This document shows, piece after piece, positions 8,845 to 32,848 of a stretch of DNA of 42,272 bases. Source of the stretch: a virus; IMG/VR virus record IMGVR_UViG_3300020438_003241, positions 1-42,272 of that record. One strand, given 5' to 3'. Below the pieces are notes generated by a model. The model did no database searches. It was not told the DNA's origin and saw nothing but the letters and a program-made list of their open reading frames with translations. The translations under genes and the position numbers were made by a program. Numbering within the stretch: the first letter of the stretch is position 1; each line of letters opens with the position of its first letter.

Positions 8845-8852
8845 CATAAATA
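8845..8852 (+). promoter_or_regulatory. T4-like late promoter box (CATAAATA)
   Basis: CATAAATA, 24 bases before the ATG at 8877. The spacer contains ACTAGGAT as ribosome binding site and forms part of an 11-bp palindrome reaching into the start codon. Confidence 0.7.
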
Positions 8853-8878
8853 TGTATATCAGACTAGGATATACATAT
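8850..8878 (+). repeat. 11-bp inverted repeat ending in a start codon
   Basis: ATATGTATATC (8850-8860) and GATATACATAT (8868-8878) are perfectly complementary around the loop AGACTAG. The 3' arm includes the first two bases of the ATG at 8877, and the 5' arm overlaps the late promoter box. A similar palindrome with different arm sequence sits at 18933-18962. Confidence 0.6.
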
Positions 8879-10622
8879 GGCAATAAATTTTCCAACAAAT
8901 CCAGTTAATGGACAAACATTCGTAGCACTAGGCAGAGGTTGGCAGTACAATTCATCTGCTACCGCTTGGGAAGCATTAATTCGTGTTAACACTGCATTTA
9001 GCAGTGATGATATTACTGAAGGTACAACAAATCTCTATCAGAATCCTGAAAACATTCAAGATGAAGTAAACAACTTATTAGTAGCCGGCACAAATATTAC
9101 ACTTACATACAATGATGTAGCCAATAGTCTTACCATTGATAGTACAGGCGGCGGAGGCGGAGCAACAGCTCTTGAAGATTTATCAAACGTAAGTTCAACT
9201 TCACCAAGTACTGGACAAGTTCTCAAGTGGTCAGGATCAGAATGGGCGCCAGCTGCAGATGCAACTGGAGGCGGTGGATCTGGTATTTCACTAACAGATC
9301 TAAGTGTTGGTGCTGAAGGTACTGCAAGTGGTGATGGTGATGTTGCTTACAATAACGTAACAGGTGTGTTTACATACACCCCGCCAGACACGAGTTCATT
9401 TTTAACAAGTGTACCAGCACAATCATTTGCAAGTTTAACAGGTAAGCCAACAACAATAGCAGGATATGGAATTACTGATGCGTTCGATGGCGCATACAAT
9501 AGTTTAACAGGTAAGCCAACATTGTTTAATGGAGCATTTAGCTCATTAACAGGTAAACCTACTACAATCAGTGGTTATGGAATTACAGACGCCGCTACAC
9601 AATATAGTGACAGTAATGTTGATACCCATTTAAATCAAAGTAGTGCTACAACAGGACAAATCCTAGCTTGGAATGGTACAGACTATTCATGGATAGGACA
9701 GTCAAGTGGCGGAACTGATTTATATAATGCAAACGAAAATAGTCCTGCAGGACAACCTAATGCCACTGGAAATAATGCGGTAGCTATAGGTGATAGTGCA
9801 TCAGCAACGGGGAATGATGCCGTAGCAATTGGCGAGACTAGTGTTGCAAGTGGTATACAAAGTATAGCTCTTGGGTATAACGCTAAGGCATCTTTTCAAT
9901 CTATTGCTGGTCCAAACAGTAATGCTTCAGGAGGTAACTCAATAGCATTTGGAATTGGCAGTAATTCAACAACATACGGAGCTACGGGTGATTTCAGTTT
10001 TGCGGCTGGTCTTCAAACAAAGGCGTCAGGAGATTACGCAATAGCAATAGGTAGTGAAGTAATAGCGTCAGCAACGAGGTCAGTTGCTATTGGATATGCT
10101 AGTACTAGTTCACATAATGACTCTATTGCAATTGGTGACACAGTGTCAACTACTGCAACAAATCAAATTGCTTTAGGAAGTTCTGCAGATAGTGTACGAA
10201 TTTCATCTGCATACACACTTCCAACAACAGACGGGACAACAGGACAAGTGCTACAAACTAACGGAGCAGGAGTATTAAGTTTTGCTACTGCTAGCGGAGG
10301 CGGAAGTACTGGTGATATAAGTTTCAGCGGTAGTACATTATCTAGTAGTGGTAACACAATTACACTAGACGATAATGTTACAGTAACTGGTACACTAACC
10401 AGTACTCAAGCAGGTGCTCCGATTCTTACCAGTACGAGTAGTATCACACTACGAGCCAATTCTAGTAGTAGAGTACATGTAGATCAGAGTCCATTGAGAT
10501 TATATAATGTATCAACCACAAACAGAAATGCAATAACAGCCGCTGACGGCGATATGATTTATAATACTACTACATATAAAGCTCAAGTTTTTGCAAATGG
10601 TAGTTGGGTAGACCTGCATTAA
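8877..10622 (+). CDS. Fibre/adhesin with YadA-like head repeats
   Basis: 581 residues. The N-terminus (MAINFPTNPVNGQTFVALGR, W-Y...A.AWEAL) is a common phage-fibre start module. Around residues 185-245 there are three 'SLTGKPT' units, two with 'T.I.GYGITDA', a fibre-shaft repeat. From roughly residue 298 to 440 runs a series of 'AVAIG.SA.A.G', 'SIALGYNAKAS', 'SIAFG', 'AIAIGSE', 'SVAIGYAST', 'SIAIGD', 'QIALGSSA' units. These match the left-handed beta-roll head repeats of YadA/Hia-type trimeric autotransporter adhesins. The C-terminus has 'LRLYNVSTTNRNAITA' and 'GDMIYNTTTYKAQVF', a widespread fibre tip segment. No membrane anchor is present. It is likely a trimeric receptor-binding fibre under late control. 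Confidence 0.85.
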   Translation: MAINFPTNPVNGQTFVALGRGWQYNSSATAWEALIRVNTAFSSDDITEGTTNLYQNPENIQDEVNNLLVAGTNITLTYNDVANSLTIDSTGGGGGATALEDLSNVSSTSPSTGQVLKWSGSEWAPAADATGGGGSGISLTDLSVGAEGTASGDGDVAYNNVTGVFTYTPPDTSSFLTSVPAQSFASLTGKPTTIAGYGITDAFDGAYNSLTGKPTLFNGAFSSLTGKPTTISGYGITDAATQYSDSNVDTHLNQSSATTGQILAWNGTDYSWIGQSSGGTDLYNANENSPAGQPNATGNNAVAIGDSASATGNDAVAIGETSVASGIQSIALGYNAKASFQSIAGPNSNASGGNSIAFGIGSNSTTYGATGDFSFAAGLQTKASGDYAIAIGSEVIASATRSVAIGYASTSSHNDSIAIGDTVSTTATNQIALGSSADSVRISSAYTLPTTDGTTGQVLQTNGAGVLSFATASGGGSTGDISFSGSTLSSSGNTITLDDNVTVTGTLTSTQAGAPILTSTSSITLRANSSSRVHVDQSPLRLYNVSTTNRNAITAADGDMIYNTTTYKAQVFANGSWVDLH

Positions 10623-10628
10623 TATATA

Positions 10629-11564
10629 ATGGAATGTATAATGCATTATAATACTATAGAACCACAAAATAACACTTTTAAAACAATTTTAGTACAAACT
10701 ACATATTTTTGTCAAATGAAATGCTCTAATTGTTATTTAGGTGATATGTTGAACAACAAAAACATTCCTGATGTTGATTTTGATAGACTTTCAGAGGTAT
10801 TAGGGAATTTACCTAATCGTTGCGATATAAGATTATTAGGAGCTGAGCCCACGATGAATCCACAAATATTAGATTTAATCAAATTAATTAGAGAAAAAGG
10901 ACACAGGCCTTCAATGTTAACAAATGGTTTAAAATTGTCAAATGAATTTTTTGTACAAAAGTTGAAGAAAGCAGGACTCAACACATTAGGGATTAGTATG
11001 AATGGCGGTTTATGTAACGAAACATATCAAATTTATGATAATGGTAAGTATGCAAAACAAAAAACTAAAGCATTAGATAATTGTTTAAAAAATAACATAG
11101 TACCTCATATTAATACAATATTAACACCTTTAAATTTACATACTTTAAAACCATTGTTAGAATTTGTAGTTGATAAAGCACTACAATATGATATAAAATT
11201 TAGTCCAATGAAGTTTCCAATAATGCTAAGACCAAAATCAATTGGAAAGATGGGTAATTTTTTAAATGAAAAAACATATAGCTTACAAGAATTAGCTGAG
11301 ATTATTTCAGTGCTTACAAACAAAAAAGTTAATGATATAATGGATTCGAAAAATATAGACGGTTTTAATGAAAAGAACACCAGAGTTTTTACGTTTGACA
11401 CAAAAGCCGGTCAAATGTTATGTAAATTAACTGATTGGACAGTTGACGAAGAAGGAGTTATAGATAGAGGTAGTGAAAGAAGAGGTATCATTACACATGA
11501 CTATAGACTATCTCCAGCGTTTGAATATTATGCAGAACAAGTTGGAACCTATGGAAATAATTGA
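10629..11564 (+). CDS. Radical SAM protein
   Basis: 311 residues from the ATG at 10629. An ATG at 10641 with GGAA 6 bases upstream is an equally good start. Cys28, Cys32 and Cys35 (CQMKCSNC) form the CxxxCxxC site that binds the [4Fe-4S] cluster used to cleave S-adenosylmethionine. 'LLGAEPTMNP' fits the GGE-like SAM-binding strand and 'LTNGLKLS' the next core strand. A single late cysteine (MLCKLTDW) suggests a degenerate or truncated SPASM/twitch domain, with no full second cluster visible. The substrate is unknown. It is the first gene of an 11-gene enzyme island and very AT-rich compared with the fibre genes before it. The next gene overlaps its 3' end by 14 bases. Confidence 0.85.
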   Translation: MECIMHYNTIEPQNNTFKTILVQTTYFCQMKCSNCYLGDMLNNKNIPDVDFDRLSEVLGNLPNRCDIRLLGAEPTMNPQILDLIKLIREKGHRPSMLTNGLKLSNEFFVQKLKKAGLNTLGISMNGGLCNETYQIYDNGKYAKQKTKALDNCLKNNIVPHINTILTPLNLHTLKPLLEFVVDKALQYDIKFSPMKFPIMLRPKSIGKMGNFLNEKTYSLQELAEIISVLTNKKVNDIMDSKNIDGFNEKNTRVFTFDTKAGQMLCKLTDWTVDEEGVIDRGSERRGIITHDYRLSPAFEYYAEQVGTYGNN

Positions 11565-12162
11565 TATTACAGAAGATAAGGAATTAATTAAAAAATTATC
11601 ATTTGAAGCAGTTGATTCAAATAATCCTAATCACAGAAATACAAAAAACTATATTGATTTACACAAACGAGATTTTGTAAAATTTCATATTTTGAAGGAA
11701 AAAAATCAAATAGTTTCATTTGCAGCAATGTATCAACATACTTCGTGGCCTAAAAATATAATTAAAATTGTCGATAGAATGTATACGTTTCAACAATTTA
11801 GAGTAAAAAACGGAAATGGTTTTTCTTCAAAAAAACCAAATATAAAAAACAATGATGATCATGGAGGATTATGTTCTGGTCAACTTATTCCACATCAATT
11901 TGAAATTGCTAAAGAGTTAAATTTGATTCCATTTGTTTCAGTACAATTATTAAGTAGAAGAAATGCAGTAAAAAGATGGTTAGATACTAGAATTGATAAA
12001 AAACTAAAATTTAAATTATTAGATGGAATGTATTATGTATGTGGCGGAGATCCTAAAATAAGTATGTTGTGTTGGCAAAATGTTTTATCTACTGATAAAA
12101 TTGAACTACCTTCAATAAATATTGATATGTATAACCGCACTTTTAAAAGAGGAAAACGATGA
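11551..12162 (+). CDS. GNAT-like protein (paralogue of the 17861 gene)
   Basis: 203 residues from the ATG at 11551; a longer frame from 11473 would overlap the radical SAM gene by 92 bases and is less likely. The layout resembles a GNAT acetyltransferase fold: a polar N-terminal helix, 'FHILKEKNQIVSFAAMYQH' as the central beta hairpin, 'IVDRMYTFQQFR', and a C-terminal 'SRRNAVKRWLDTRID' followed by 'LLDGMYYVCGG' strands. The canonical Q/RxxGxG/A acetyl-CoA loop is not obvious, so the enzymatic assignment is tentative. The same architecture occurs at 17861, and both genes overlap a following AspH-like oxygenase gene by exactly 4 bases (ATGA). The pair probably works together. Confidence 0.55.
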   Translation: MEIIDITEDKELIKKLSFEAVDSNNPNHRNTKNYIDLHKRDFVKFHILKEKNQIVSFAAMYQHTSWPKNIIKIVDRMYTFQQFRVKNGNGFSSKKPNIKNNDDHGGLCSGQLIPHQFEIAKELNLIPFVSVQLLSRRNAVKRWLDTRIDKKLKFKLLDGMYYVCGGDPKISMLCWQNVLSTDKIELPSINIDMYNRTFKRGKR

Positions 12163-12791
12163 GAAATATATTAGAAAAAAGCATGCCAATAAGTTTAGAT
12201 GAATTTATTAGTATTGATAAAGAAAAATACCATGAGGTTGATATTGAAATACAAAAGATGTTTCCTAAATTACCATCGTTGTTAATAGGCAAAAAAGATA
12301 ATGGTGAAAGATACTGGATTAAAAAAGGTGAGGCAAAAGTTGATTGGGAAGTAGTTCCACTGACAGATAGTGTGTATGGTGATTCTGATTTTTATAGTTA
12401 TAGACCGTGGAATAGATTTTCTAAATTTTTTCCTAAGTTAAAAAAATTTATTGAAGATCTTCCAACAAAAGGATTAGGAAGAGCATCAATTCTTAAAGTA
12501 AAAGCCGGACACGAATCTATTCCACATATTGACCCACAATTTCTGCCTGGTGCTGATCCAATTGAAAAGTATGATAGGATTTTGAACATATGTTTTGGTA
12601 CTATCAAACCTTTATATATGTTAGAACCTCAGATGAAAACAAAACATTATTTTAATGGTAGAATAAATTGGTTAGATGTATCAGATTGGCACGGAGTTGA
12701 ATCAGCAAATGTTGATACATACACACTTAAACTTGATGTATTATTAAGTGATAAATTAAGAGAACAAATAAAGAAAAAGTATAATGTCTAA
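12159..12791 (+). CDS. AspH-like 2-oxoglutarate/Fe(II) dioxygenase homologue
   Basis: 210 residues. The double-stranded beta-helix signature of aspartyl/asparaginyl beta-hydroxylase-like proteins is visible. 'IPHIDPQFLP' supplies His123 and Asp125 (HxD), 'YDRILNICFG' is the following core strand, and 'SDWHGVESANVDTYTLKLDV' supplies the distal His178. The Arg that normally binds 2-oxoglutarate 9-10 residues after the distal His is not present (Thr187/Tyr188 instead), so activity or co-substrate may be altered. The start overlaps the GNAT-like gene by 4 bases. Substrate unknown; family members hydroxylate protein side chains or small molecules. Confidence 0.75.
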   Translation: MRNILEKSMPISLDEFISIDKEKYHEVDIEIQKMFPKLPSLLIGKKDNGERYWIKKGEAKVDWEVVPLTDSVYGDSDFYSYRPWNRFSKFFPKLKKFIEDLPTKGLGRASILKVKAGHESIPHIDPQFLPGADPIEKYDRILNICFGTIKPLYMLEPQMKTKHYFNGRINWLDVSDWHGVESANVDTYTLKLDVLLSDKLREQIKKKYNV

Positions 12792-12817
12792 TATAGACTG
12801 TGAAGGCGTAAACATAA

Positions 12818-13975
12818 ATGATATGTAAAATGCCTTGGCATGCAATTTGTTTAAGTGCAATTGGCGATATAAAACCTTGTTGTCTATTTTCCGCTAAAGG
12901 AAGACCTCCTAATACTGAATATCCAACAATTATGGAAAACTGGAATAGTCCGCGTATGCAAGACTTACGTCAAGAATTTCTAAATGGTGAAAAACCAAAA
13001 GACTGCAATAGCTGTTGGGAGAGAGAAGAGCAAGTAGGACATAGTAGAAGAACATGGTTCGATCAAAAGTTTGGAAAATACATTACTGAACCTACAACAG
13101 ACCTAATAGTAAACAATCCACAAATCGTACAGGCAGATATAAACCTATCAAACATATGCAACCTAAAATGCCGTATGTGTGGATCGTGGGCAAGCAATAG
13201 TTGGTTTGAGGAAGAGGTTGCCTTAGCCGTGAAGGACCGTCGATATCAGAAGAATAGTAAGCCACAGAGTATACGCAATGTTTCTGTGGAAGATATTCAG
13301 AATATATTACCGCACATTAGGACTATTAAGAGGATAGACTTCAAAGGTGGCGAACCAATGCTTGCTAAACATCATGATGATTTCCTACAGTGGATGATTG
13401 ATGAAGGTATGACTGATGTACACTTGTTATATACTACAAATGGCACAGTACGAAATCCACGTATTTTAAAACTACTAAGCCAGTTTAAAAAAATAAACCT
13501 AGTATTCAGTATTGAAGGTACAGGAACACGTTATAGTTACATACGTGGTGGCAAATATGATATTGCTCAAATTGAAGAAAATATGAGAAAGTATAATAAG
13601 TTAGAAAACGTTGAGATTAACTTTAATGTTACCCTACAAAATTACAACTTGTTGAACCTATTAGAGTTGTATAAATTGCTACATGAATGGCAATATAAAT
13701 ATGATAGAGTAGATGCAACCAATGCCTTTACTTACAATTCAGTAATCTCACCAGATTACTTGAGTCCCTTAAATGTACCTAATGAAATGCGTGATATTGC
13801 TTTAGATCAGTTACAGGATATAGACGACTTTAAAAATTTATGCAAAAGTTTACGCAATCGTAAATTTGATCAAGATAAGTGGAATACTTTTATTGACTTT
13901 ACAATAGACCTTGATAAACTAAGAAATGACAATATATTAGATCATTGTCTAGAATTTGAGAAATACTTTGACTAA
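12818..13975 (+). CDS. Radical SAM protein with N-terminal SPASM/twitch-like cysteines
   Basis: 385 residues. Cys114, Cys118 and Cys121 (CNLKCRMC) are the radical SAM cluster ligands. 'IDFKGGEPML' is the GGE motif and 'LLYTTNGTVRNP' a following core strand. Before the core, Cys3, Cys11, Cys21/22 and the C63-x2-C66 pair ('DCNSCWERE') form a SPASM/twitch-like auxiliary-cluster region, an order typical of 'twitch-domain' radical SAM proteins in marine phages. The core also has 'FSIEGTGTRYSYIRGG'. Composition is less AT-rich than its neighbours (24 of 60 G+C in 13321-13380, against 12 of 60 in 14221-14280), hinting at a separate origin. GAAGG about 11 bases upstream is a weak ribosome binding site. 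Substrate unknown. Confidence 0.85.
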   Translation: MICKMPWHAICLSAIGDIKPCCLFSAKGRPPNTEYPTIMENWNSPRMQDLRQEFLNGEKPKDCNSCWEREEQVGHSRRTWFDQKFGKYITEPTTDLIVNNPQIVQADINLSNICNLKCRMCGSWASNSWFEEEVALAVKDRRYQKNSKPQSIRNVSVEDIQNILPHIRTIKRIDFKGGEPMLAKHHDDFLQWMIDEGMTDVHLLYTTNGTVRNPRILKLLSQFKKINLVFSIEGTGTRYSYIRGGKYDIAQIEENMRKYNKLENVEINFNVTLQNYNLLNLLELYKLLHEWQYKYDRVDATNAFTYNSVISPDYLSPLNVPNEMRDIALDQLQDIDDFKNLCKSLRNRKFDQDKWNTFIDFTIDLDKLRNDNILDHCLEFEKYFD

Positions 13976-15488
13976 GATAGTAAGCATAGAAGATAATCAC
14001 GCATCTAAAACTGACATTACGTTAATATGTATACCAAAATTAACAGTCAAAGGACCTTTGTTATCCCTTACTCAACTTCAAGCATGTATAAAACAATCTA
14101 ATTTTACTTCTACTTGTTATGATTTTAATATATGGTTTTATAATAAAACAATTGATACTAAGTTAAGTTATATATGGAAAGTTTTGGACAACACTCTGAT
14201 AACTGAAAAAATTAAAAAAATTGAGACAGAATATATAAATTTTTGGAATGTTTTTTTTGATGAAATTGTTAAAAAGGATAATCCAAAAATTTTAGGTTTA
14301 TGTGCATTTTCAAGTTGGTCTTATCCGGGTATTGATATAATTGTTAAAGAAGTTAAAAAAAATTATCCAAACATAAAAATTTTAATAGGAGGTCCGGCAG
14401 TAAGAGATGCACCTCCCGACAAATCATCATACGGTTTAGATAACAATAAAGATTATTTTATAAATTTACAAAACAAAAACTTAATTGATGATTTTATTTG
14501 TGGAGATGCAGAAAAAAGTATTGTAGAATATCTTAGGGGTAATATGAATTATCCTGGAATTAATAATTTTGAACCTCAAGATATTATTAATCAAGAAGAT
14601 ATACCTACTCCGGATTATGAAAATATTGATATGTCAGCTTATAAAGATCCTCATTATTATATTAGAGGATCTAGAGGATGTGTTAGAAAATGTGCATTTT
14701 GTAATGTGCCTTTACTTTGGAAAACATTCAGATGGAGAAGTGGCAAGCATATTGCTGATGAAATTATTAATTTGTATGAAAAATATAATGTAAAAAAGTT
14801 TTATTTAATTGATAGTTTAACCAATGGTAATCAAAAAGAATTTATGAATTTAATGAATTGGATAAGTCAATACAAAAAACTTACAAAAGCTAAATTTTCC
14901 ATTGGTGGTCAATTTATTATGAGAGAAAAAAATCAAGTACCTCTTGAAATGTTTTCGCTTATGAAAGAAGCTGGATATAACGAACCTACAATAGGAATTG
15001 AATCAGGAAGTGAAAAAGTTAGAAAAGAATTAGGAAAATATTTTTCTAATGAAAGTATTGAATTTCATTTAGAAGAAATGAACAAAGTTGGTTTAAAAAT
15101 GGTTCCATTGTTTTTTGTAGGTTTTCCAACTGAAACTGATAATGATTTTGATCAATCAGTCAATATTTTAAGTCTGTTTGCTAAATATCCGAATGTAGTA
15201 AATTTAATACATATGGATCATCCTATGCATGTTATTGAAGGAACTCCTGTTGCAATGGATCATGAAAGATTTGATATTTTAAATGTTACAAACTCATTTA
15301 TATGGGAGAGTAAACACAGTGATTATAAAAAAAGAATAGAAAGGTTTTTTATTTTCCTTGATAAAGCCATTGAATTGAATCTTTATAAGAGACCTAGAGT
15401 ATCCGACAAAGCATACACTATGATTAATGATTATAAAACATATAGCAATTTAGATAAAGGTGTTTTACAAATAATGGATAGTTGGTAA
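13956..15488 (+). CDS. B12-binding-type radical SAM protein
   Basis: Up to 510 residues. No ATG is available near the start. Initiation is at TTG 13956 or, more likely, TTG 13968, which overlaps the previous stop. Residues ~20-200 look like a cobalamin-binding-type Rossmann domain ('ILGLCAFSSWSYPGID', 'ILIGGPAVRDAP', 'FICGDAEKSIVEYL'), although the classical DxHxxG ligand motif is not evident. The radical SAM core follows, with Cys242, Cys246 and Cys249 (CVRKCAFC), 'FYLIDSLTNGN', 'EPTIGIESGSEKVRKEL' and 'VPLFFVGFPTETDNDF'. Members of this class include methyltransferases and ring-forming enzymes acting on unactivated carbons. Substrate unknown. Very AT-rich. Its stop overlaps the next start (TAATG). 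Confidence 0.85.
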   Translation: MRNTLTKIVSIEDNHASKTDITLICIPKLTVKGPLLSLTQLQACIKQSNFTSTCYDFNIWFYNKTIDTKLSYIWKVLDNTLITEKIKKIETEYINFWNVFFDEIVKKDNPKILGLCAFSSWSYPGIDIIVKEVKKNYPNIKILIGGPAVRDAPPDKSSYGLDNNKDYFINLQNKNLIDDFICGDAEKSIVEYLRGNMNYPGINNFEPQDIINQEDIPTPDYENIDMSAYKDPHYYIRGSRGCVRKCAFCNVPLLWKTFRWRSGKHIADEIINLYEKYNVKKFYLIDSLTNGNQKEFMNLMNWISQYKKLTKAKFSIGGQFIMREKNQVPLEMFSLMKEAGYNEPTIGIESGSEKVRKELGKYFSNESIEFHLEEMNKVGLKMVPLFFVGFPTETDNDFDQSVNILSLFAKYPNVVNLIHMDHPMHVIEGTPVAMDHERFDILNVTNSFIWESKHSDYKKRIERFFIFLDKAIELNLYKRPRVSDKAYTMINDYKTYSNLDKGVLQIMDSW

Positions 15489-16003
15489 TGAATTTTGATG
15501 CGTACATTTATGAAATTAAATTAAATTATGATAAACAAAAGTTAATTAACGAAGGCGAGTGTATTGGTTATAATAAAACACGAGCGACAAGGCGTATTTA
15601 TGAAGCCAGAATTGATAACTTTGAATTTTTAAAAAAATATAATGAAATTAATAATGTTTATTCACAAATAAAAAATATATTTAAAAAAGATATTAAAACA
15701 ATATCATTTTATAAATTACCCATTGGTGAAGCAATAAGCCCGCACAAAGATCATTTCAACGCAAAAAATAATGTTGGTTTTGCTATTAACATATTGTTAA
15801 CAGAAGATAACCAAACTCCTTTAAAATTTATTATTGAAGATAAACATTATGATATATTTTATAATTGTATATTGTTTAATGCAGGTAATGTAATGCATTA
15901 TGTACCAAAAGTCAACAAAGAAAGAATCTTAATAAGATATTTTGTCAAAGATATGACATACGAAGAAGGAAAAAGTATATGTCAAAACCAATTACATACT
16001 TGA
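15488..16003 (+). CDS. AspH-like 2-oxoglutarate/Fe(II) oxygenase, short form
   Basis: 171 residues from the ATG at 15488, which overlaps the preceding TAA by one base; an in-frame TTG at 15482 is a less likely start. 'GEAISPHKDHFN' supplies His86 and Asp88, 'VGFAINILLTED' is the next core strand, and 'NAGNVMHYVPKVNKERILIRY' supplies the distal His137 and the co-substrate Arg146. The three metal ligands and the 2-oxoglutarate Arg are all in place, so it should be active. It follows the B12-type radical SAM gene without a gap, suggesting consecutive or paired chemistry. Substrate unknown. Confidence 0.75.
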   Translation: MNFDAYIYEIKLNYDKQKLINEGECIGYNKTRATRRIYEARIDNFEFLKKYNEINNVYSQIKNIFKKDIKTISFYKLPIGEAISPHKDHFNAKNNVGFAINILLTEDNQTPLKFIIEDKHYDIFYNCILFNAGNVMHYVPKVNKERILIRYFVKDMTYEEGKSICQNQLHT

Positions 16004-16004
16004 G

Positions 16005-16012
16005 TATAAATA
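16005..16012 (+). promoter_or_regulatory. T4-like late promoter box (TATAAATA)
   Basis: An exact TATAAATA, identical to the T4 late consensus, 25 bases before the desaturase ATG, with ATAGGGGAT as ribosome binding site. It splits the enzyme island into two transcription units. Confidence 0.75.
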
Positions 16013-16037
16013 CATATAGTTAATTATAGGGGATAAG

Positions 16038-16670
16038 ATGTATATTGTTTATGGATTTATTTGGTATCTTGTTATAGCACATTTTTCAGTATCAGCCGGT
16101 CTTCATCGGTACTTTGCACACAAGGCTTTTAAAGCAAATTGGTTATATGAAATATTTGTGTTATGGTCAACAAACCTAATAGGACTCAGAAGTCCCATTG
16201 GATGGATGGGTGTTCATAGAATGCATCATCATCACTCTGACACAGAACTGGATCCGCACTCTCCATTGACCAAAGGTTTTTGGAAAGTACTTTTTGGCAT
16301 GTTTAAGATAGATCATATTCCGTCAAAATATGTTAGAGATTTATATAAAAATCCTCGCATTCTTTTCTTTCATAAATATTGGCACATTATATGGGGAGTA
16401 CAAATACTAATTGCGTTACTCATTTCTTGGCAGTTTCTTGTTGCTTATACTGTTATACCTAGTATAATGGCACTAATTGGGTTTGGTTCGGTAAATGCAT
16501 TATGTCACATTAATGGGAAATCAAGAAATGTACCAGCTATAAATCTAATAGCAGCAGGCGAAGGTTATCACGCTGAACACCATAAAGGAAAAAACTTAAG
16601 GTTTCATAAATGGGATCATATGGGAGCATTACTAGAATGGGCGATGAGAAAGAAAATAATCGCAAAATAA
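16038..16670 (+). CDS. Membrane fatty-acid desaturase (acyl-CoA delta-9 type), compact
   Basis: 210 residues with several hydrophobic segments (about 1-20, 35-55, 117-155). All three histidine boxes of stearoyl-CoA desaturase-type di-iron enzymes are present: H23RYFAH28, H60RMHHHH and H178AEHH. The enzyme class inserts a cis double bond into membrane acyl chains using O2 and an electron donor in the inner membrane. The protein is shorter than many cellular homologues (about 300 residues), having lost mainly N-terminal sequence before the first box. It stands directly behind its own consensus late promoter. It may adjust host membrane fluidity or lipid composition late in infection, or act on a lipid made by the neighbouring enzymes. 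Confidence 0.9.
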   Translation: MYIVYGFIWYLVIAHFSVSAGLHRYFAHKAFKANWLYEIFVLWSTNLIGLRSPIGWMGVHRMHHHHSDTELDPHSPLTKGFWKVLFGMFKIDHIPSKYVRDLYKNPRILFFHKYWHIIWGVQILIALLISWQFLVAYTVIPSIMALIGFGSVNALCHINGKSRNVPAINLIAAGEGYHAEHHKGKNLRFHKWDHMGALLEWAMRKKIIAK

Positions 16671-17221
16671 ATGACATGAAAGGCTATGATAGCCAAGTAA
16701 ATGCAAAAGATCAATACAATATAAGATCAGACATTGGATTTGGAAGAAAAACATATCCATGGACTTTAGTATCAAAATTTTGTGATATTCCTTTAGACAT
16801 ATATCAAGATATACTAGAAGAAGCAAAGACTGCTTCTTATGAGCCATACTTTGCCTTTAACTTTGCTTATGTTGATCATCCTTGGGCTCACGAAATTGTA
16901 GAAAAATACGATGAAATATATGGATGTTTATTTCTTAAAATAGATGAAGGATCTAATGTTCTGCCTCATTGTGATCCAGTAAGAACAAGTAGTATAATTG
17001 CCCCTATGTGTTACGAAGATGAAGTGTATACACCTTTAGAAATTTATGCAGACGAGACTATCTACACCATTGGTTATTCAGAACGTAAAGCGGCATGGGC
17101 ATGGAACTGTAAACAACCACATGCTGTTTTTAATAAAAACCACAAGGATAGAGTAAATCTTCAATGGAATCTTAATATCCCTTACAAGCAATTTTATGAA
17201 AAATATTTAACCAATGGTTAA
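16637..17221 (+). CDS. AspH-like 2-oxoglutarate/Fe(II) oxygenase
   Basis: 194 residues from the ATG at 16637 (GGGAG about 10 bases upstream), which overlaps the desaturase 3' end by 34 bases. An in-frame ATG at 16676, just after the desaturase stop, is the alternative. Catalytic residues are clear: 'NVLPHCDPVRTSSIIAPM' gives His111 and Asp113, and 'WAWNCKQPHAVFNKNHKDR' gives the distal His162 and the 2-oxoglutarate Arg172. 'DEIYGCLFLKIDEG' is the typical strand before the HxD. Substrate unknown. It overlaps the downstream methyltransferase gene by 8 bases. Confidence 0.75.
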   Translation: MGDEKENNRKINDMKGYDSQVNAKDQYNIRSDIGFGRKTYPWTLVSKFCDIPLDIYQDILEEAKTASYEPYFAFNFAYVDHPWAHEIVEKYDEIYGCLFLKIDEGSNVLPHCDPVRTSSIIAPMCYEDEVYTPLEIYADETIYTIGYSERKAAWAWNCKQPHAVFNKNHKDRVNLQWNLNIPYKQFYEKYLTNG

Positions 17222-17879
17222 AAATCTTAGAAATCAAATATATTTAAAATATAATGTACGTGAGTATTTTGAAAATATAGTTTCCCTAAAAGATAAAGTT
17301 GTAGTCGATTGGGGGTGTAATCATGGAAACATGTTGGAATATCAACCTTGTGATTTTGACTATATTGGATTAGATATTGACAAATATATCATTGAACAAA
17401 ATCGATCTAAATGGCCTCAGCATGAGTGGATTCATATGGATGCTCATAATCATCAGTACCACCCCCATGGTGGTAACGAGTGGGCTGAAATTAGACCTCA
17501 TGATTTAGTTTTAATGTTTAGTATATTTACACACATGGACGTAGATACTATGCATGAATATATTGGTAAAATGGAAGCTCCACTACTAAGTACATTTATT
17601 CCCAGTAATGATAAAGAAAAATTACAAACAGCTTTAGGATATAGACTTACATCTGATCTGTATACACAAGTATTAGACAAACCGTTCTGTTATATCGTTG
17701 CTACACCCGATGATGTATTAATATATGAGAATATTAGATCAATGCCTTTTAAAGATCCAAAAATATGGTATTTTTTAGTAGTTCATCATCCCGACTATAT
17801 GAGACAATATGGTGAAATCATTGATACACCATACGAAACAGGAATTAGAAATACACAGCTATGCTTATCAGTAAAATAG
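17214..17879 (+). CDS. Class I SAM-dependent methyltransferase
   Basis: 221 residues. 'KVVVDWGCNHGNML' (about 28-41) is the glycine-containing motif I that binds S-adenosylmethionine. 'YIGLDIDKYII' places the acidic residue that contacts the ribose (Asp54 region). 'PHDLVLMFSIFTHMDVDTMH' matches motif IV/V with the FTHM pattern often seen in methyltransferases acting on small molecules or glycans. The acceptor cannot be predicted. The first codons overlap the previous gene by 8 bases, and the last 19 bases overlap the GNAT-like gene, so all five genes from 16038 to 18900 are likely one unit. Confidence 0.8.
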   Translation: MVKNLRNQIYLKYNVREYFENIVSLKDKVVVDWGCNHGNMLEYQPCDFDYIGLDIDKYIIEQNRSKWPQHEWIHMDAHNHQYHPHGGNEWAEIRPHDLVLMFSIFTHMDVDTMHEYIGKMEAPLLSTFIPSNDKEKLQTALGYRLTSDLYTQVLDKPFCYIVATPDDVLIYENIRSMPFKDPKIWYFLVVHHPDYMRQYGEIIDTPYETGIRNTQLCLSVK

Positions 17880-18397
17880 ATGATTGGTTGTATACTGAAC
17901 AACCTAGTAACGACACAAGGCCGGCTGAAGTATGGACTAGAAAAACCAAATCAGAAGATTTATCTGATATAGATAAATTATTATACGGATTAAAAGATAC
18001 GCATTGGCTAGCTAAAAACTATACAATGGACCAAATAGAAAAGCTAAAAGTAATTTCTATTATGAAGAGAGAAGGAAAGATTGTAGGATTTTCTGGAATT
18101 CAAACTATAGATATAGGTTCAAGGATATTATCTAGGCTATATCAAGTTCCAGAAAATAGAGTTAGATTTACTAGAGAGTTATTTAGACCTACTATACAAG
18201 CAATGGTTGAACAACAATTATTACTAGAAGGTAACAATAATCAAGTTGTAATATCAAGAGAACCGAGACAGTCGAAATATTTTAAGAGATTTGTCGACGA
18301 ACTAAATAAAAGAAGCACAGCCAAATGGACGCTTAATAATCAGTTATATGAAACTGTACCAGGTTCTTGGCAATATATAGCATGGAGAAATAAATGA
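17861..18397 (+). CDS. GNAT-like protein (paralogue of the 11551 gene)
   Basis: 178 residues. After an N-terminal helical part, 'KVISIMKREGKIVGFSGIQT' is the beta hairpin typical of GNAT folds. It is followed by 'RLYQVPENRVRFTREL', a helix 'PTIQAMVEQQLLL', a strand 'NQVVISREP', and 'YFKRFVDELNKR' before the final beta strands. The order of elements matches the 11551 gene, with low sequence identity. The acetyl-CoA loop is not clear, so acetyltransferase activity is an inference from fold. The following oxygenase gene starts on its last codon (4-base ATGA overlap), as for the other copy. Confidence 0.55.
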   Translation: MLISKIDDWLYTEQPSNDTRPAEVWTRKTKSEDLSDIDKLLYGLKDTHWLAKNYTMDQIEKLKVISIMKREGKIVGFSGIQTIDIGSRILSRLYQVPENRVRFTRELFRPTIQAMVEQQLLLEGNNNQVVISREPRQSKYFKRFVDELNKRSTAKWTLNNQLYETVPGSWQYIAWRNK

Positions 18398-18900
18398 AAC
18401 AATATGGAATTCAGACAGATGTAAACCTTGGTATGGAATTTTTTCAAGAGTATTTTGATAAAACCGAATGGGTAGAATCGTTTGAACATTATGGAGAAAG
18501 AATTCCAGACTGTACTAATGGAAAATTAATGACAAAATTTTATGTTAAGCATATTCCAGCAGAAATGCATGACATAAAGATAAGAAAGTTTGTTCTAAAA
18601 CAATTTAAAAAATATGGAATTAAAACAAAAGACTTTCGATTAGATTTTTTTCTTGTAAAAGCTGGAGGAAGTATGCCTCCTCATGCTGATTTATATTCTG
18701 AAATAGCTTTTTTAATGCCTCTTTCAAAAAACACCGGCTGCTTAGGTATTAAAGACGATAGCGGTGAAATGAGAATTGTGTATAACGATATGTTTATCTT
18801 AAACACCAAAAAAGTTCACTGGGTAGAAGAGCCAACAGAAGATCGACTTTTGTTTAGGTTAGCTGTCCACGATTTTCCATATACAGAAATGATCTTATAA
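18394..18900 (+). CDS. AspH-like 2-oxoglutarate/Fe(II) oxygenase
   Basis: 168 residues. 'DFFLVKAGGSMPPHADLYSE' holds the iron ligands His97 and Asp99. 'IAFLMPLSKNTGCLGIKDD' is the following jelly-roll part. 'NTKKVHWVEEPTEDRLLFRL' has the distal His142 and the 2-oxoglutarate Arg151. The gene ends the 10.6-18.9 kb enzyme island; a new late promoter and structural genes follow after 27 bases. It pairs with the upstream GNAT-like gene through a 4-base overlap. Substrate unknown. Confidence 0.75.
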   Translation: MKQYGIQTDVNLGMEFFQEYFDKTEWVESFEHYGERIPDCTNGKLMTKFYVKHIPAEMHDIKIRKFVLKQFKKYGIKTKDFRLDFFLVKAGGSMPPHADLYSEIAFLMPLSKNTGCLGIKDDSGEMRIVYNDMFILNTKKVHWVEEPTEDRLLFRLAVHDFPYTEMIL

Positions 18901-18927: not shown

Positions 18928-18935
18928 AATAAATA
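18928..18935 (+). promoter_or_regulatory. T4-like late promoter box (AATAAATA)
   Basis: AATAAATA, 25 bases before the ATG at 18961, with AATAGGG as ribosome binding site. It marks the return from enzyme genes to structural genes. Confidence 0.7.
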
Positions 18936-18962
18936 CATATAACCAGAATAGGGTATATGTAT
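18933..18962 (+). repeat. Inverted repeat ending in a start codon
   Basis: ATACATATA (18933-18941) pairs with TATATGTAT (18954-18962), extended inward by two G-C pairs after one mismatch. The 3' arm contains the first two bases of the ATG at 18961 and the 5' arm overlaps the late promoter. It has the same layout as 8850-8878, with a different arm sequence. Confidence 0.55.
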
Positions 18963-26894: not shown

Positions 26895-27866
26895 ATGAAA
26901 AAACACACAGCATTTTTCTTTAACGGAGGTGCTGGAAGAGTACTATGTGCTATTCCAGCTTTAGAACTTTATCACAAAGAGAACCCAGAAGATGATTTTA
27001 TAGTAATACTCGAGTCTTGGTTTGATTTAATTAGAGGACATCCTTTATTACATAAACGTTCATATACAATGGACACGCCAAATTTATTTGAAGAAAAAAT
27101 ACGTGATAGAAGATGTATAGGAACAGAACCTTATCGAGTATGGGAATACTACAATCAAAAATGTAGTTTATCACAAGCATATGATATAGAAATAAATAAC
27201 AAAGGTATCAGAGAGCTAGCTGTACCTAGTATGCATTTTAGTTCAGACGAAGAAGTAAATGCATTTCATCTTGTAAACGATGTTAAAGAGAAAACTAAAA
27301 AAGATAAAGTATTAGTATTACAACCTTTCGGTAGAGGTGCCAAAGAAACCGCAGGCTTTGTTCATGATAGTGGCGGACGTAGCTTAGATATAATGGATAC
27401 AATAGAACTTGTAAAAAAATTACAAAAGAATGATTTTGGTGTAATTATGATGTCAGAATTTGAAATGGATTGGAAATCTAGAGGATGCGTAGATACAGTA
27501 GCAACTCCTAAACTCGAACTCAGGCATTGGGCAAGTGTGATTGAAGCAGCAGATCATTTTTTAGGTATTGATAGTGTAGGTCAACATATGGCAGTAGCTT
27601 GTGGCACTACTAGTACGGTTATATTTGGAAGTACATTTCCTATTAATACAAGTTATTTAAATAATACAAAAGTTGATATTATCGACTTTGACGAAGATAA
27701 AAGACAATATAGTCCCATTAGATTAACATACGATGATGTAATTGAAAGAAATAATGATCGGTGTTTATCTTTTAAAGATCAGTATAGATGTATTGATCGT
27801 ATTGTTAAATCAGTAAAAATAATGACAGGAGTAAAACCTAAGCATGAACAAAAAACTAAAAAGTAA
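26895..27866 (+). CDS. Glycosyltransferase family 9 (heptosyltransferase-like)
   Basis: 323 residues. The N-terminus 'FFFNGGAGRVLCAIPALELY' matches the GT9 opening, where a Gly-rich loop is followed by a helix starting 'IPAL'. The C-terminal nucleotide-sugar half has 'VLVLQPFGRGAKETAG' and 'LRHWASVIEAADHFLGIDSV', then 'GQHMAVACGTTSTVIFGSTFP', the signature region of ADP-heptose:LPS heptosyltransferases. It probably transfers a heptose or other sugar to a host glycan or a virion or DNA acceptor. ADP-heptose synthesis genes (hldD, hldE) are 6 kb downstream, which supports heptose as donor. It overlaps the carbamoyltransferase gene by 23 bases. Confidence 0.75.
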   Translation: MKKHTAFFFNGGAGRVLCAIPALELYHKENPEDDFIVILESWFDLIRGHPLLHKRSYTMDTPNLFEEKIRDRRCIGTEPYRVWEYYNQKCSLSQAYDIEINNKGIRELAVPSMHFSSDEEVNAFHLVNDVKEKTKKDKVLVLQPFGRGAKETAGFVHDSGGRSLDIMDTIELVKKLQKNDFGVIMMSEFEMDWKSRGCVDTVATPKLELRHWASVIEAADHFLGIDSVGQHMAVACGTTSTVIFGSTFPINTSYLNNTKVDIIDFDEDKRQYSPIRLTYDDVIERNNDRCLSFKDQYRCIDRIVKSVKIMTGVKPKHEQKTKK

Positions 27867-29733
27867 AAAAGACACAAACTGGATACTAGGTATAACAAGA
27901 GGGCATAATGGTGGTGTTTGCCTTTTAAAAAATGGTAAAGTAGTATTTTGTACAGAAGAAGAACGCTATACTAGAAAAAAGTATGATGGTGCTCCGTTGC
28001 GTAGCATTATGGAAGTTTTAAAGTATACCAAAAAATTAGATGCAGTTGGGATAGCACATACACAACCTATTACTCCTCATACAGGAGAACACGGTAAATT
28101 AGAATACACCGGAGAAAATGTTTTTGCAGGATTTTTAAGAAAAATTGGACTAATATCAAGCGAAAGATATGATGTTGGTATTGTAGACGAACATCCTCAG
28201 ATTTATGATTATGGATTAGAACATCATAAGTTACATGCTTATACCGCATTTAGTAAAAGCAACTTTGATAAAGCGGCAATACTTGTAGTAGATGGTGCTG
28301 GTAGCTTTTTACCTATTACGGACGGATTAAGTAGTCATAAAGGACAAGGAGCCACCATTGGATGGGAAGTAGAAACTATTTTCGATGGTGATAAGAAAAG
28401 AAAAAATCCTATACATACTAAATTTAAAAGTATAGGTTCCAGAGATCCTATACTCTCTTCAACATTTCACATGACAGCTACTAACTTTATGCGTAGAGAA
28501 GGGACCAATGAACATGAAGCTTTCTTACATGATCATGCAGGAATTGTAAAAACATACGAAGCAGTAACTGACTTTTGTGGTTGGCAAAGTATAGAAGCAG
28601 GTAAGACTATGGGATTATTTCCATACGGAAAACCTAATGAAGATATAAACAAGTTGTTTATGGATGAAAGACAATCCAAATATTGGCCATTGAGTGATAG
28701 GAATATAATTGTTCCTAGTTACCCTAATGGTGCAACTGTCAATCAAAATTTAATAGTAGAATACAGTCATGAAGAAACAGGAGGAGAAGGTAAGAACAAA
28801 TATGATCATCAGTTAGCAAAAGATTTAGCATATGCAGTACAAACAGAAACACAAGAACAAATGCTTAAAGCTATTATCAAAGCATCTGAAATGTGTGATA
28901 GCAAAAATGTTGTATTAACTGGGGGTTATGCTTTAAACTGTGTTGCAAATTATTTCTATCTTGACAAACTTAATGAATTAGGAATAAATTTATATGTTGA
29001 GCCAGTTAGTAATGATGCAGGAACTGCATTAGGAGCGGCAATATATGCACACTTAGAAGAGACAGAAAAATTTATAGAATTAGATAATAACATATACTTA
29101 GGACAACAATATAACTATTCAGAATCTGAAATAAAAAAAGTTTGTGATTTTGATGATGTTGTGTTGACAGATAATGTAACAAATAAAGATGTTGTTAAGT
29201 TACTCAAAGATAGAAATATTGTTACAATATTTCAAGGTGGATGTGAAAATGGTCCTAGAGCATTAGGCAACCGCAGTATACTATACGATCCAACAGATCC
29301 AACCGGAAAAGATCATGTAAACACTATTAAACACAGAGAATTTTTTAGACCGTTTGCAGGTACTATACTTAAAGAACATGTACATGAATGGTTTGATCTC
29401 AAAGGTATAGAAGCTACTCCTCATATGATGTATGCAGTTAAGTGTCAACCTGGAATTGAAGAGAAGATTCCTGCTATTATTCATGTGGATGGCACTTGTA
29501 GAATACAAACTGTAACTGAAGAAGAGAATACTAATTACTATAACTTAATAAAAGAATGGTATAAACAAACAGGTTGCCCGATCATTTTTAATACAAGTTT
29601 TAACTTAGGTGGAGAACCTTTAGTCGAAACATTAGAAGACGCAATGCGAACATTGTCGAATAGTGATATAGAATATTTGTATTTGCCAGAATACAAAAAG
29701 TTAATTTATGTGAAAAACAATGAGCAAGTATAA
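27844..29733 (+). CDS. NodU/CmcH-family O-carbamoyltransferase
   Basis: 629 residues, the full length expected for the family. The N-terminal ASKHA-like domain begins 'WILGITRGHNGGVCLLKNGK' and continues with 'EEERYTRKKYDG', 'EHHKLHAYTAFSKSNFDKA' and 'AILVVDGAGS', the metal/ATP-binding layout of TobZ/NodU. The C-terminal YrdC-like part has 'IVTIFQGGCENGPRALGNRS', 'FFRPFAGTILKE' and 'GCPIIFNTSFNLGGEPLVET', all hallmark motifs. The enzyme transfers a carbamoyl group from carbamoyl phosphate to a hydroxyl, usually on a sugar. With the adjacent GT9 enzyme it may make a carbamoylated glycan on the host surface or virion. Confidence 0.9.
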   Translation: MNKKLKSKKDTNWILGITRGHNGGVCLLKNGKVVFCTEEERYTRKKYDGAPLRSIMEVLKYTKKLDAVGIAHTQPITPHTGEHGKLEYTGENVFAGFLRKIGLISSERYDVGIVDEHPQIYDYGLEHHKLHAYTAFSKSNFDKAAILVVDGAGSFLPITDGLSSHKGQGATIGWEVETIFDGDKKRKNPIHTKFKSIGSRDPILSSTFHMTATNFMRREGTNEHEAFLHDHAGIVKTYEAVTDFCGWQSIEAGKTMGLFPYGKPNEDINKLFMDERQSKYWPLSDRNIIVPSYPNGATVNQNLIVEYSHEETGGEGKNKYDHQLAKDLAYAVQTETQEQMLKAIIKASEMCDSKNVVLTGGYALNCVANYFYLDKLNELGINLYVEPVSNDAGTALGAAIYAHLEETEKFIELDNNIYLGQQYNYSESEIKKVCDFDDVVLTDNVTNKDVVKLLKDRNIVTIFQGGCENGPRALGNRSILYDPTDPTGKDHVNTIKHREFFRPFAGTILKEHVHEWFDLKGIEATPHMMYAVKCQPGIEEKIPAIIHVDGTCRIQTVTEEENTNYYNLIKEWYKQTGCPIIFNTSFNLGGEPLVETLEDAMRTLSNSDIEYLYLPEYKKLIYVKNNEQV

Positions 29734-30808
29734 AAAAGAAGATCAAATAAATGGGTCAATTTGGGTAGATCCTGAAGTTCCAAATTTTAAAGATAGACCA
29801 AATGCTATACATAGAGATAACCCAAATCCTACATATAGAAAACCCCATTGGTATGAATTAAAATTTGATTATGAAACAGAAAAAGGCCCGCCTTGGGATA
29901 AAAATTATATGCCTGAAGTAGATGTTATGGTAGATAGTTGGGTTAATAACTGGTGGAGACAATGGGAAATTGATCGACATACAATGAATGATTTAGACTT
30001 TGCTGAGAAATATCCCGAAGAGTGTGAAGAATGGATCCCAGATGAAAGAATAAATGAGTATAAAAATCATTTTATATATCTATTAGAACAAGATATTGTT
30101 TATACCGATATTGGAGGAATTGAACCAAATAGTAAAGAAGATGATCATATTGATATGATAGGCAGTGATTTGAGGATTAATCAGCCTGAACAAACTGTAA
30201 AAGGTCAAGTTATTACTTTGAGATCTGATTTGACCCCAACTGGAGATAATATTCCAAAAAATAATATATATAACAATGATCCATGGATGTTTGCTTTTGA
30301 CAATGATAGACAAGAATGGAGACATTTTAACATAAGGAGAATACATCACATGTGGAATATAAATTTTAGAAAATGGTATGCCGATCAACATTGGATAATG
30401 GATAAACTTAAAAGGTTTGATTGTATTTTAGACTATAAAGTTGATCAAGAAATTCCTAATAGACCAAACGAATACGAAGATCCTAATTTAATTAGAGGGG
30501 TAAATGTTACTTTAATGCCAGAAAAGATACCACATGAGCCTAAACTCACACTAGCACCACATGAACCTCAAGAAGCAAGATATGACCCAGAATGTAGTGT
30601 AGTATTATGGAATATTGATAAACAAGAGTGGTTAACAATTAAATTAGCACAAATCTATAATATGGAAATACTAGAAGACAAAACACCTCCGCCACCTGAG
30701 GAATCAGATGATTTTGATCCTACAACTGTTGACGGCAATCCAAATAGTGAGAAAAAACCTGAGTTCAAAGATAAAGTTAAATCTCAGGAAACAGACACTC
30801 CTCAATGA
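29720..30808 (+). CDS. Unknown phage protein with an internal repeat
   Basis: 362 residues, very rich in Trp, Asp, Glu, Asn and Pro, with no recognised family. Two segments resemble each other: residues 187-214 ('DPWMFAFDNDRQEWRHFNIR', then RIHHMWNI) and 289-317 ('DPECSVVLWNIDKQEWLTIK', then LAQIYNMEI). They suggest duplicated small beta-alpha units. The C-terminal ~45 residues are Pro/Glu/Asp-rich and probably disordered. It overlaps the carbamoyltransferase gene by 14 bases, so it may serve the same glycan pathway. It runs convergently into the bilin reductase gene, overlapping its 3' end by 32 bases. Confidence 0.6.
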   Translation: MSKYKKEDQINGSIWVDPEVPNFKDRPNAIHRDNPNPTYRKPHWYELKFDYETEKGPPWDKNYMPEVDVMVDSWVNNWWRQWEIDRHTMNDLDFAEKYPEECEEWIPDERINEYKNHFIYLLEQDIVYTDIGGIEPNSKEDDHIDMIGSDLRINQPEQTVKGQVITLRSDLTPTGDNIPKNNIYNNDPWMFAFDNDRQEWRHFNIRRIHHMWNINFRKWYADQHWIMDKLKRFDCILDYKVDQEIPNRPNEYEDPNLIRGVNVTLMPEKIPHEPKLTLAPHEPQEARYDPECSVVLWNIDKQEWLTIKLAQIYNMEILEDKTPPPPEESDDFDPTTVDGNPNSEKKPEFKDKVKSQETDTPQ

Positions 30809-31445
30809 AATGTCTAATATCGACAGGATCTAGTCCTAGTGCTTCCATAGCTTTGGGTGTATGTGGATTTTGTTTTTGATAATGACAGTATCTATTTTGC
30901 TGATCTTTTATTAAACTTTGGTTATATTGAGCTTTTGTATATTTAGGTAGCTCTTCAAAGTACATGTCTAAGTTATCTAATGCCATAGTAACAACCTGAT
31001 CCATTTCGTCTGCTTTTACATTACTTGCGGCAACCATATGTTTACTGAATATTGCTTGAGCCCACGAAGGTAGTTCACGTTGTTTTTTCCATTCTAAATC
31101 TTGTACACAATCTCTAAACAACAAACACATAGGATGATGCCAATCTACTGTAGGAGAATAGTCATGGAAAGCACCAGTAACTTTGTTTTTTCCTGCAATA
31201 ATATCAAACCCATATATAGGTGAATCATTGTCGAAGTTTGGAAACACACATATATGAGTCATATACAAACCCTTTGAGTCTCTAGCATCTACACTATCTA
31301 TATGTGCTCGTCTAAAATGTTCACCTTTGTATACTTTATTAAGCCAATCAAACTCTGGATCATCAAAATTTTCTGTGCCTAAACTAGCACATTTTGCAAT
31401 AATCTTTTGTTCGCAATCGATAAGTTTATCCCATATTTCGCTCAT
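30777..31445 (-). CDS. pcyX: Ferredoxin-dependent bilin reductase (PcyA/PcyX-like)
   Basis: 222 residues, the normal length of the FDBR family, which reduces biliverdin IXalpha to phycobilins using reduced ferredoxin. The region 'FRRAHIDSVDARDSKGL', 'YMTHICVFPNFDNDSPIYGF' and 'DIIAGKNKVTGAFHDYSPT' follows cyanobacterial PcyA closely. His64 and Asp95 correspond to the catalytic PcyA His88 and Asp105. The PcyA-specific Glu76 position is Asp50 here, which argues for a different product regiochemistry, as in phage-type PebS/PcyX enzymes that make phycoerythrobilin. 'KQRELPSWAQAIFSKH' matches the PcyA 'RELPPWGEIFSEY' segment. The start overlaps the ALAS stop by 4 bases (ATGA). No heme oxygenase gene is in this window. 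Confidence 0.88.
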   Translation of the reverse strand: MSEIWDKLIDCEQKIIAKCASLGTENFDDPEFDWLNKVYKGEHFRRAHIDSVDARDSKGLYMTHICVFPNFDNDSPIYGFDIIAGKNKVTGAFHDYSPTVDWHHPMCLLFRDCVQDLEWKKQRELPSWAQAIFSKHMVAASNVKADEMDQVVTMALDNLDMYFEELPKYTKAQYNQSLIKDQQNRYCHYQKQNPHTPKAMEALGLDPVDIRHFIEECLFPEI

Positions 31446-32626: not shown

Positions 32627-32777
32627 TTATGTATTGCTTATAACGCTCTCTGTCTATATAAAACGGCTGTATCGGATTCATTGGCACTGGAGAATATATT
32701 ACTGTAATTCCCATTTCATTAAGTTCTTTTTGTGTTTCATTGGCATGATTGATCCATTGCTTTATGTACTTTAACAT
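32577..32777 (-). CDS. Small leading ORF of the ALAS-bilin reductase operon
   Basis: 66 residues from the ATG at 32777 (MLKYIKQWINHANETQKELN, ending NNQSKS). It is hydrophilic, basic at the C-terminus and of unknown function. This start is preferred over an upstream frame because a perfect late promoter (TATAAATA) ends 5 bases before it, so any upstream start would lie outside the transcript. Its 3' end overlaps the ALAS start by 50 bases, so its translation may govern ALAS initiation. Confidence 0.55.
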   Translation of the reverse strand: MLKYIKQWINHANETQKELNEMGITVIYSPVPMNPIQPFYIDRERYKQYINDKQKQISKCNNQSKS

Positions 32778-32782
32778 AATTA

Positions 32783-32790
32783 TATTTATA
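32783..32790 (-). promoter_or_regulatory. T4-like late promoter (TATAAATA) of the bilin operon
   Basis: On the - strand TATAAATA is followed by exactly 5 bases and then ATG (32777). No room remains for a ribosome binding site downstream of the expected transcription start, so the mRNA is likely leaderless. Confidence 0.7.
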
Positions 32791-32798
32791 GTTAATTG

Positions 32799-32827
32799 TT
32801 GACAAGACATTCTTCCTACAGTATAAT
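32799..32827 (+). promoter_or_regulatory. Consensus sigma70 promoter (TTGACA-N17-TATAAT)
   Basis: A perfect -35 (32799-32804) and a perfect -10 (32822-32827) at the optimal 17-base spacing, 21 bases before the hldD ATG, with ATAGGAG as ribosome binding site. It is divergent from the late promoter at 32790. It is probably a strong early promoter. Confidence 0.9.
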
Positions 32828-32848
32828 TAAGAAATATAGGAGTCTTAT

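Follow-up and report, generated by a model that had tools for sequence, protein, structure and literature searches.

The viral DNA analysed here, hereafter the window, is the IMG/VR virus record IMGVR_UViG_3300020438_003241 (42,272 bases). Eleven enzyme open reading frames (ORFs), A to K, lie head to tail on the plus strand from position 10629 to 18900, with fibre genes on both sides. The initial annotation had recognised in this island three radical S-adenosylmethionine (SAM) proteins, four Fe(II)/2-oxoglutarate (2OG) oxygenase homologues, two GNAT-like proteins, a SAM methyltransferase and a di-iron desaturase, and had suggested that they form one pathway. The observation is confirmed, with weaker evidence for some of the family assignments, and comparison with related loci indicates a core system with swappable additions rather than one indivisible 11-gene pathway. 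The core, as gene maps from many phages and a few bacteria indicate, is a recurring unit in which the radical SAM protein A is joined by at least one 2OG oxygenase and by a GNAT-fold protein (B or J).

The three radical SAM proteins all score above the PF04055 cut-off (A 52, D 45 and E 54 bits), and each contains a CX3CX2C motif. Gene A (10629..11564, PF04055 E 1.1e-13) encodes a MoaA/Tes-like radical SAM core enzyme. Across 27 aligned sequences it has the one CX3CX2C motif and one further near-invariant cysteine, and none of the auxiliary Fe-S cluster cysteines of SPASM/twitch peptide maturases. The AlphaFold2 model of A (predicted local distance difference test score, pLDDT, 84.9) is nearest in fold to Tes and MoaA. 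Its nearest solved structure is Tes (GDGT-MAS; 7tol, 7tom), with a template modelling (TM) score of 0.71-0.73 and 14% identity. Tes, which acts on lipid chains, is also among the best profiles for A, but A is far shorter and reaches only 56 bits against a cut-off of 450 (NF045702). The other curated equivalogs were likewise missed (MoaA 50 bits against 284, BlsE 47 against 400). Gene D (12818..13975) carries an N-terminal twitch/SPASM-like domain and is a clear member of NF033640 (304 bits against a cut-off of 170, residues 2-384). Gene E (13956..15488) appears to be a B12-binding-type radical SAM protein, although its B12-binding domain match (PF02310, E 1.9e-5, 24.9 bits) is below the cut-off of 32.1. 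Its best NCBIfam profile is that of the PhpK-family B12 radical SAM P-methyltransferases (TIGR04479), yet at 96 bits against a cut-off of 600, and unlike in that family no phosphonate genes are found near E.

The HxD...H motif is kept in all four oxygenase-like proteins: C (12159..12791, HID(123)...H178), F (15482..16003, with a TTG start), H (16610..17221, HCD(120)...H171) and K (18394..18900, HAD(97)...H142...R). Profiles built from related-phage oxygenases matched F, K and H strongly (E 1.9e-17, 3.5e-11 and 2.7e-8) and C most weakly (E 1.4e-3); in C the motif is also kept in the related contig L005 described below. A Pfam scan of B, C, F, H and J gave no match, and neither did a comparison of K with PHROGs and NCBIfam. 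Gene G (16038..16670) encodes a membrane di-iron desaturase of fatty acids: it scores 36.6 bits for PF00487 (cut-off 29.7) and has the three His boxes HX4H, HX2HH and HX2HH. Gene I (17214..17879) is assigned as a SAM-dependent methyltransferase, its PF13489 match (E 1.4e-4) being below the curated cut-off.

The two GNAT-like proteins were identified by different routes. For gene B (11473..12162) the AlphaFold2 model (pLDDT 84.6) matches GNAT structures in Foldseek with a probability of 1.00, while the GNAT membership of J (17861..18397) follows from its homology to its paralogue B (hhalign 97%, E 2.8e-11). The R/Q-x-x-G-x-G/A acetyl-coenzyme A (CoA) loop is absent from 24 of 26 B/J proteins, including both window copies, as expected if the donor were something other than acetyl-CoA. 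Its sequence does not support membership of B in the HlyC acyltransferase family PF02794 (no Pfam match; hhalign probability to bacterial HlyC 0.1%).

The genes are tightly packed, as first described. Nominal overlaps occur at A/B, B/C, D/E, E/F, G/H, H/I, I/J and J/K, and gaps of 26 and 34 nucleotides (nt) separate C from D and F from G. Later starts are likely for B (11551) and H (16676), which would shorten the A/B overlap and remove the G/H overlap. A ribosomally synthesised and post-translationally modified peptide with a local precursor was rejected because the gaps in the island, 6-60 nt, leave no room for one. At 25-34% GC the island is AT-rich relative to the flanking fibre genes (36-41%). 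A second IMG/VR contig (37.7 kb) is 100% identical to the window over 21.5 kb including the whole island, which is therefore not an assembly join. The fibre gene just 5' of A (8877-10622) contains YadA-head-like repeats with seven [SA]hAhG-type motifs.

Rather than one contiguous block, the island consists of two, A-F and G-K. Seven gene starts in the window are preceded by an ATAAATA motif at 25-42 nt, and these motifs mark fibre genes; 2000 shuffles gave a mean of 0.7 and a maximum of 4. One late-promoter-like copy (8846..8853, plus strand) lies 5' of the fibre gene preceding the island. Since A begins 6 nt past the end of that gene, A-F are presumably read through from its promoter. A second copy, TATAAATA (16005..16012, plus strand), stands 32 nt before G and divides the island, so that G-K presumably have a promoter of their own. 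The third (18929..18936, plus strand) precedes the next fibre gene (18961) and marks the 3' edge. In three related viral loci (L010, L011, L018) TATAAATA is found 37-53 nt before A itself. The motif resembles a T4-type late promoter, a likeness that would make the island late-expressed.

Comparative evidence was drawn from IMG/VR and GTDB contigs; a tblastn search of INPHARED with A, B, C, E, H, I and K found no close relative. A counterpart is seen in the marine viral contig L005, where A-B-C-E-F occur in the same order with 65, 51, 54, 74 and 68% identity; these five genes are a conserved sub-block. Both D and the G-K block are missing from L005. Downstream genes there are, by names read from translations, a kinase, a nucleotidyltransferase, a sulfotransferase-like gene, a clamp, a clamp loader and a DNA polymerase. 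In the F homologue of this contig (L005:3331-4374) two oxygenase domains are fused, one 28% and the other 68% identical to window F.

Alignment of A retrieved 44 viral loci, of which 33, the window included, remained after near-identical ones were removed. Their gene maps follow a common pattern: A, then an oxygenase of one of several families, then B/J. An oxygenase is no more than two genes from A in 31 of 32 assessable non-redundant viral loci, and a GNAT-type gene is near A in 28 of 29 (on the opposite strand in L010 and L018; in L050 of the type found in Pelagibacter phage Mosig). The locus that departs from the pattern is L016. A reciprocal search from B gave 24 loci, in which the oxygenase and A precede B wherever the contig reaches upstream. 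Distances of A and B correlate (r=0.75, p=0.0002, related sequences not being independent observations) while those of A and flanking structural genes do not (r=-0.06), and the triad thus seems to move as a unit. Within one A clade the oxygenase slot is TauD-type throughout except in L048 (AspH-like). Relatives of J are found in the A islands L012, L014, L028, L029 and L040, and a gene weakly similar to I in that of L014. The core linkage is well supported.

The genomic surroundings of the module vary. The description of the island as embedded in a tail-fibre locus is correct for the window and for many pelagimyophage-type contigs, but it does not extend to a general rule: A modules lie in a fibre locus in about half of the loci. 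Elsewhere they are found with clamp and polymerase genes (L005, L016), with uvsX, helicase and thyX (L014, L030), with ribonucleotide reductase (L025) or with a single-stranded DNA (ssDNA)-binding protein (L027). A tail fibre as a necessary neighbour is ruled out by these contexts. In L016 (863-2960) A and a second radical SAM gene are inserted between counterparts of the L005 clamp and clamp-loader genes.

Counterparts of A also exist in bacteria. A GTDB scan with narrow patterns found no homologue and would have made A look phage-only, while broader patterns found full-length homologues at 25-40% identity. They are sporadic in the sampled genomes (2/385 in Alphaproteobacteria, 5/291 in the Bdellovibrio phylum). 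Key bacterial neighbours were confirmed by Pfam. A near-complete module of A, a second radical SAM protein, TauD, an AspH-like 2OG oxygenase and B is present in Bdellovibrionales (L071/L188). In the tree of A the phage sequences form one clade (100/100) inside bacterial diversity, adjoining the Bdellovibrionales locus that holds the module. The simplest reading, with the root not certain, is that phages captured a bacterial system. Two further MAG-binned contigs (L187, L189) that carry A with oxygenases were not counted as bacterial loci, as these parts of metagenome-assembled genomes (MAGs) look like phage (thyX, fibre-like genes).

In six Bdellovibrionota loci (L175, L176, L177, L178, L185, L086) a desaturase lies within a few genes of A, which supports a linkage of the two halves of the island. 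The desaturases next to bacterial A are about 30% identical to window G and mostly accompanied by AspH-like oxygenases, once by an enoyl-CoA hydratase and once by a phosphopantetheinyl transferase. The order is 2OG oxygenase, desaturase, A in L176, L178 and L185, and A, enoyl-CoA hydratase, desaturase in L177; L175 contains oxygenases, A and a desaturase. Near A in three loci (L175:4711-5226, L176:5419-5856, L177:70-489) lie genes for small proteins whose N-termini are Tat-like or signal-like. These proteins are unrelated to each other by eye, have no Pfam match above cut-off, and are possible secreted substrates.

Other bacterial loci combine A with acyltransferase-type and RTX genes. The order A, TauD, HlyC is found in L074/L186 (L074 HlyC PF02794, 2.6e-27). 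In L075 A is followed by HlyC (PF02794, 2.9e-33) and then by an RTX protein, and in L072 by a GNAT gene and then an RTX protein. Three loci (L077, L078, L087) have the order GNAT, 2OG oxygenase, A; the RTX giants that follow have at least 1,400 residues (more than 2,600 in two). In total, RTX proteins are found at five bacterial A loci (PF00353 up to 4.2e-119). HlyC moves fatty acyl groups from the acyl carrier protein to lysines of RTX proteins. The bacterial neighbours of A thus share acyl chemistry and secreted giant proteins, which favours tailoring of an acyl group followed by its transfer to an amine.

The reading preferred here, held tentatively, is that the island is a phage-borne tailoring system of bacterial origin, organised in two late units and acting on an acyl chain or an acylated surface protein. 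We infer the chemistry and the target, and with them the reaction order, donor, acceptor and timing. In the proposed scheme A would abstract a hydrogen from an unactivated carbon, either in an acyl chain or in a side chain that carries one; the oxygenases and desaturase G would introduce oxygen or a double bond; methylation would fall to E and I; and B and J would pass the completed group to an amine, in the way that HlyC acts on RTX proteins. The acceptor would most likely be a large surface protein. In the phage the target would be a protein of the virion surface, for instance a tail fibre of the same late stage, or else a component of the host envelope. Since different families (TauD-type, AspH-like, C) occupy the oxygenase slot, products would differ among phages.

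Several observations weigh against this proposal. B has no sequence homology to HlyC, and nearest-fold matches of radical SAM enzymes are poor indicators of substrate. A desaturase beside A was detected only in Bdellovibrionota and in the window; at the bacterial A loci L184 and L190 profiles detected no partner, and among the bacterial partners several belong to the ordinary GNAT proteins (PF00583). Among the phages, L016 possesses A with neither oxygenase nor GNAT gene. D, I and several of the oxygenases are not conserved partners of A, and modules beside replication genes mean that adjacency to fibres is not needed. In a 13-locus common set, with the same non-independence of related sequences, B and TauD distances also correlate with those of a flanking gene (r 0.45-0.49).

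A rival of some weight is a mosaic origin, in which only the A-2OG-B triad (with C, E and F here) is one system, and D and G-K are unrelated late genes, with no shared pathway, gathered in a hypervariable fibre locus. The promoter-like motif in front of G, the lack of D and G-K in L005 and a desaturase island without a close A in phage Mosig all agree with it, as does the report that the host-recognition clusters of pelagimyophages are hypervariable and acquire cassettes of radical SAM genes (PMC7029224). Against it stand the desaturases beside A in the six Bdellovibrionota loci, the paralogy of J with B and the presence of J relatives in other A islands. A purely mosaic origin is somewhat doubtful. 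The single pathway first suggested was to fail if related phages carried the genes scattered and without preferred partners. The core does not behave in this way, since A, a 2OG oxygenase and a GNAT-fold protein stay together in many phages, varied contexts and some bacteria. The other genes do so in part: D is missing from L005, the methyltransferase and additional oxygenases vary in presence, and G-K are preceded by a promoter-like motif of their own.

A different emphasis is placed on the fibres if a modular machine of bacterial origin for acyl tailoring and transfer, composed of A, a 2OG oxygenase and a GNAT-fold acyltransferase, decorates virion surface proteins as a phage counterpart of HlyC/RTX maturation. 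The desaturase and the B12 radical SAM protein would then be optional, and oxygenase swaps would change the unusual acyl-type decoration. This version, taken as a whole, is rather unlikely.

Alternatively, the product could be a soluble N-acyl or amino-acid-derived metabolite (a signal, an inhibitor or a nutrient-related compound), with the GNAT-fold protein resembling an N-acyl amino acid synthase. In its favour, A does not have the auxiliary cluster that peptide-modifying radical SAM enzymes typically carry, and a precursor peptide would not fit into the island. Antibiotic enzymes of the BlsE and PhpK types are among the best, though weak, profile matches of A and E, and modules are also found away from fibre genes. 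Bacterial HlyC and RTX neighbours point instead to protein targets, and the core has no conserved carrier, ligase or export gene beside it. A small-molecule pathway is judged unlikely.

Modification of the host envelope or of glycans, for example superinfection exclusion through altered lipopolysaccharide (LPS), is improbable. Sugar genes do exist 8-16 kb downstream in the window (GT9-like, NodU-like, epimerase and HldE-like), and ArnB-like and other sugar genes are near several modules, but none of them accompanies A as a conserved partner, and the A loci of bacteria do not lie in LPS clusters. Hypermodification of phage DNA or tRNA is very improbable: some modules do accompany clamp, polymerase, uvsX and ssDNA-binding genes, but most are elsewhere, the oxygenases are TauD/AspH-like, and neighbours such as desaturases, HlyC and RTX proteins would have no place in the modification of bases.

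The tailoring system preferred above overlaps in part with known ones. Pelagimyophages have a hypervariable host-recognition cluster, within which radical SAM cassettes are mentioned (Zaragoza-Solas et al. 2020, PMC7029224). Many loci found here are similar in having radical SAM genes among the tail-fibre genes of marine T4-like phages, but that paper names the cassettes only and does not describe the A-2OG-GNAT core, the sites outside the cluster or the bacterial counterpart. The tail-sheath completion protein of the window (37293-38699, minus strand) is nearest to those of the jumbo phages Phosso, PA5oct and Atu_ph07 (about 35%); the window phage thus seems not to be a plain T4-like pelagimyophage, and its lineage is uncertain.

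The cultured Pelagibacter phage Mosig EXVC030M (MT647606) also carries AspH-like, desaturase, TauD, methyltransferase and GNAT genes beside tail fibres, and its desaturase is 46% identical to window G. The Mosig island differs in its additional aminotransferase, FMN reductase and peroxiredoxin genes and in having no close A homologue, and to window I, J and K its similarity is weak or not detectable. The full order (L068, Mosig 53714-66310) is AspH-like, desaturase, aminotransferase, FMN reductase, peroxiredoxin, TauD, methylase, GNAT and AspH-like, leading into tail fibres; three genes annotated MoaA are also present in Mosig. With HlyC (PF02794) the system shares the GNAT-fold transferase logic, and bacterial A adjoins two HlyC genes and five RTX giants, but phage B and J are not PF02794 by sequence. 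HlyC is not known to need a radical SAM protein or an oxygenase. No description of the core combination was found in the open-access literature searched, and it looks like an undescribed chemical tailoring system.

Two other groups of genes in the window are worth recording. At 30777-32626 (minus strand) a 5-aminolevulinate synthase (TIGR01821, 545 bits against a cut-off of 339) and a ferredoxin-dependent bilin reductase (PF05996, E 2.2e-19, PcyA/PcyX-like) are adjacent, with a 4-nt overlap. Such a pair is the alaS-pcyX part of a phage tetrapyrrole cassette (PMC11480375). No heme oxygenase match was found among the window genes scanned. Genes of surface-sugar type occupy 26895-35227 and encode a GT9-like glycosyltransferase, a NodU-like carbamoyltransferase, an NAD-dependent epimerase and a PfkB-cytidylyltransferase (HldE-like) fusion, together with a cupin.

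Lists of auxiliary metabolic genes in marine phages usually give radical SAM and oxygenase genes one by one, whereas here a triad moves as a unit. This linkage makes a testable system out of unexplained genes, and the bacterial neighbours (desaturases, HlyC, RTX) indicate where to seek the substrate. The system is accessible through two cultured organisms, the alphaproteobacterium Labrenzia alba CECT 7551 (L077) and the pelagiphage Mosig with its comparable island. If the target is a virion protein, phage fibres would undergo post-translational chemistry of a lipid-like or radical-based kind; if it is a metabolite, the phage would make a small molecule.

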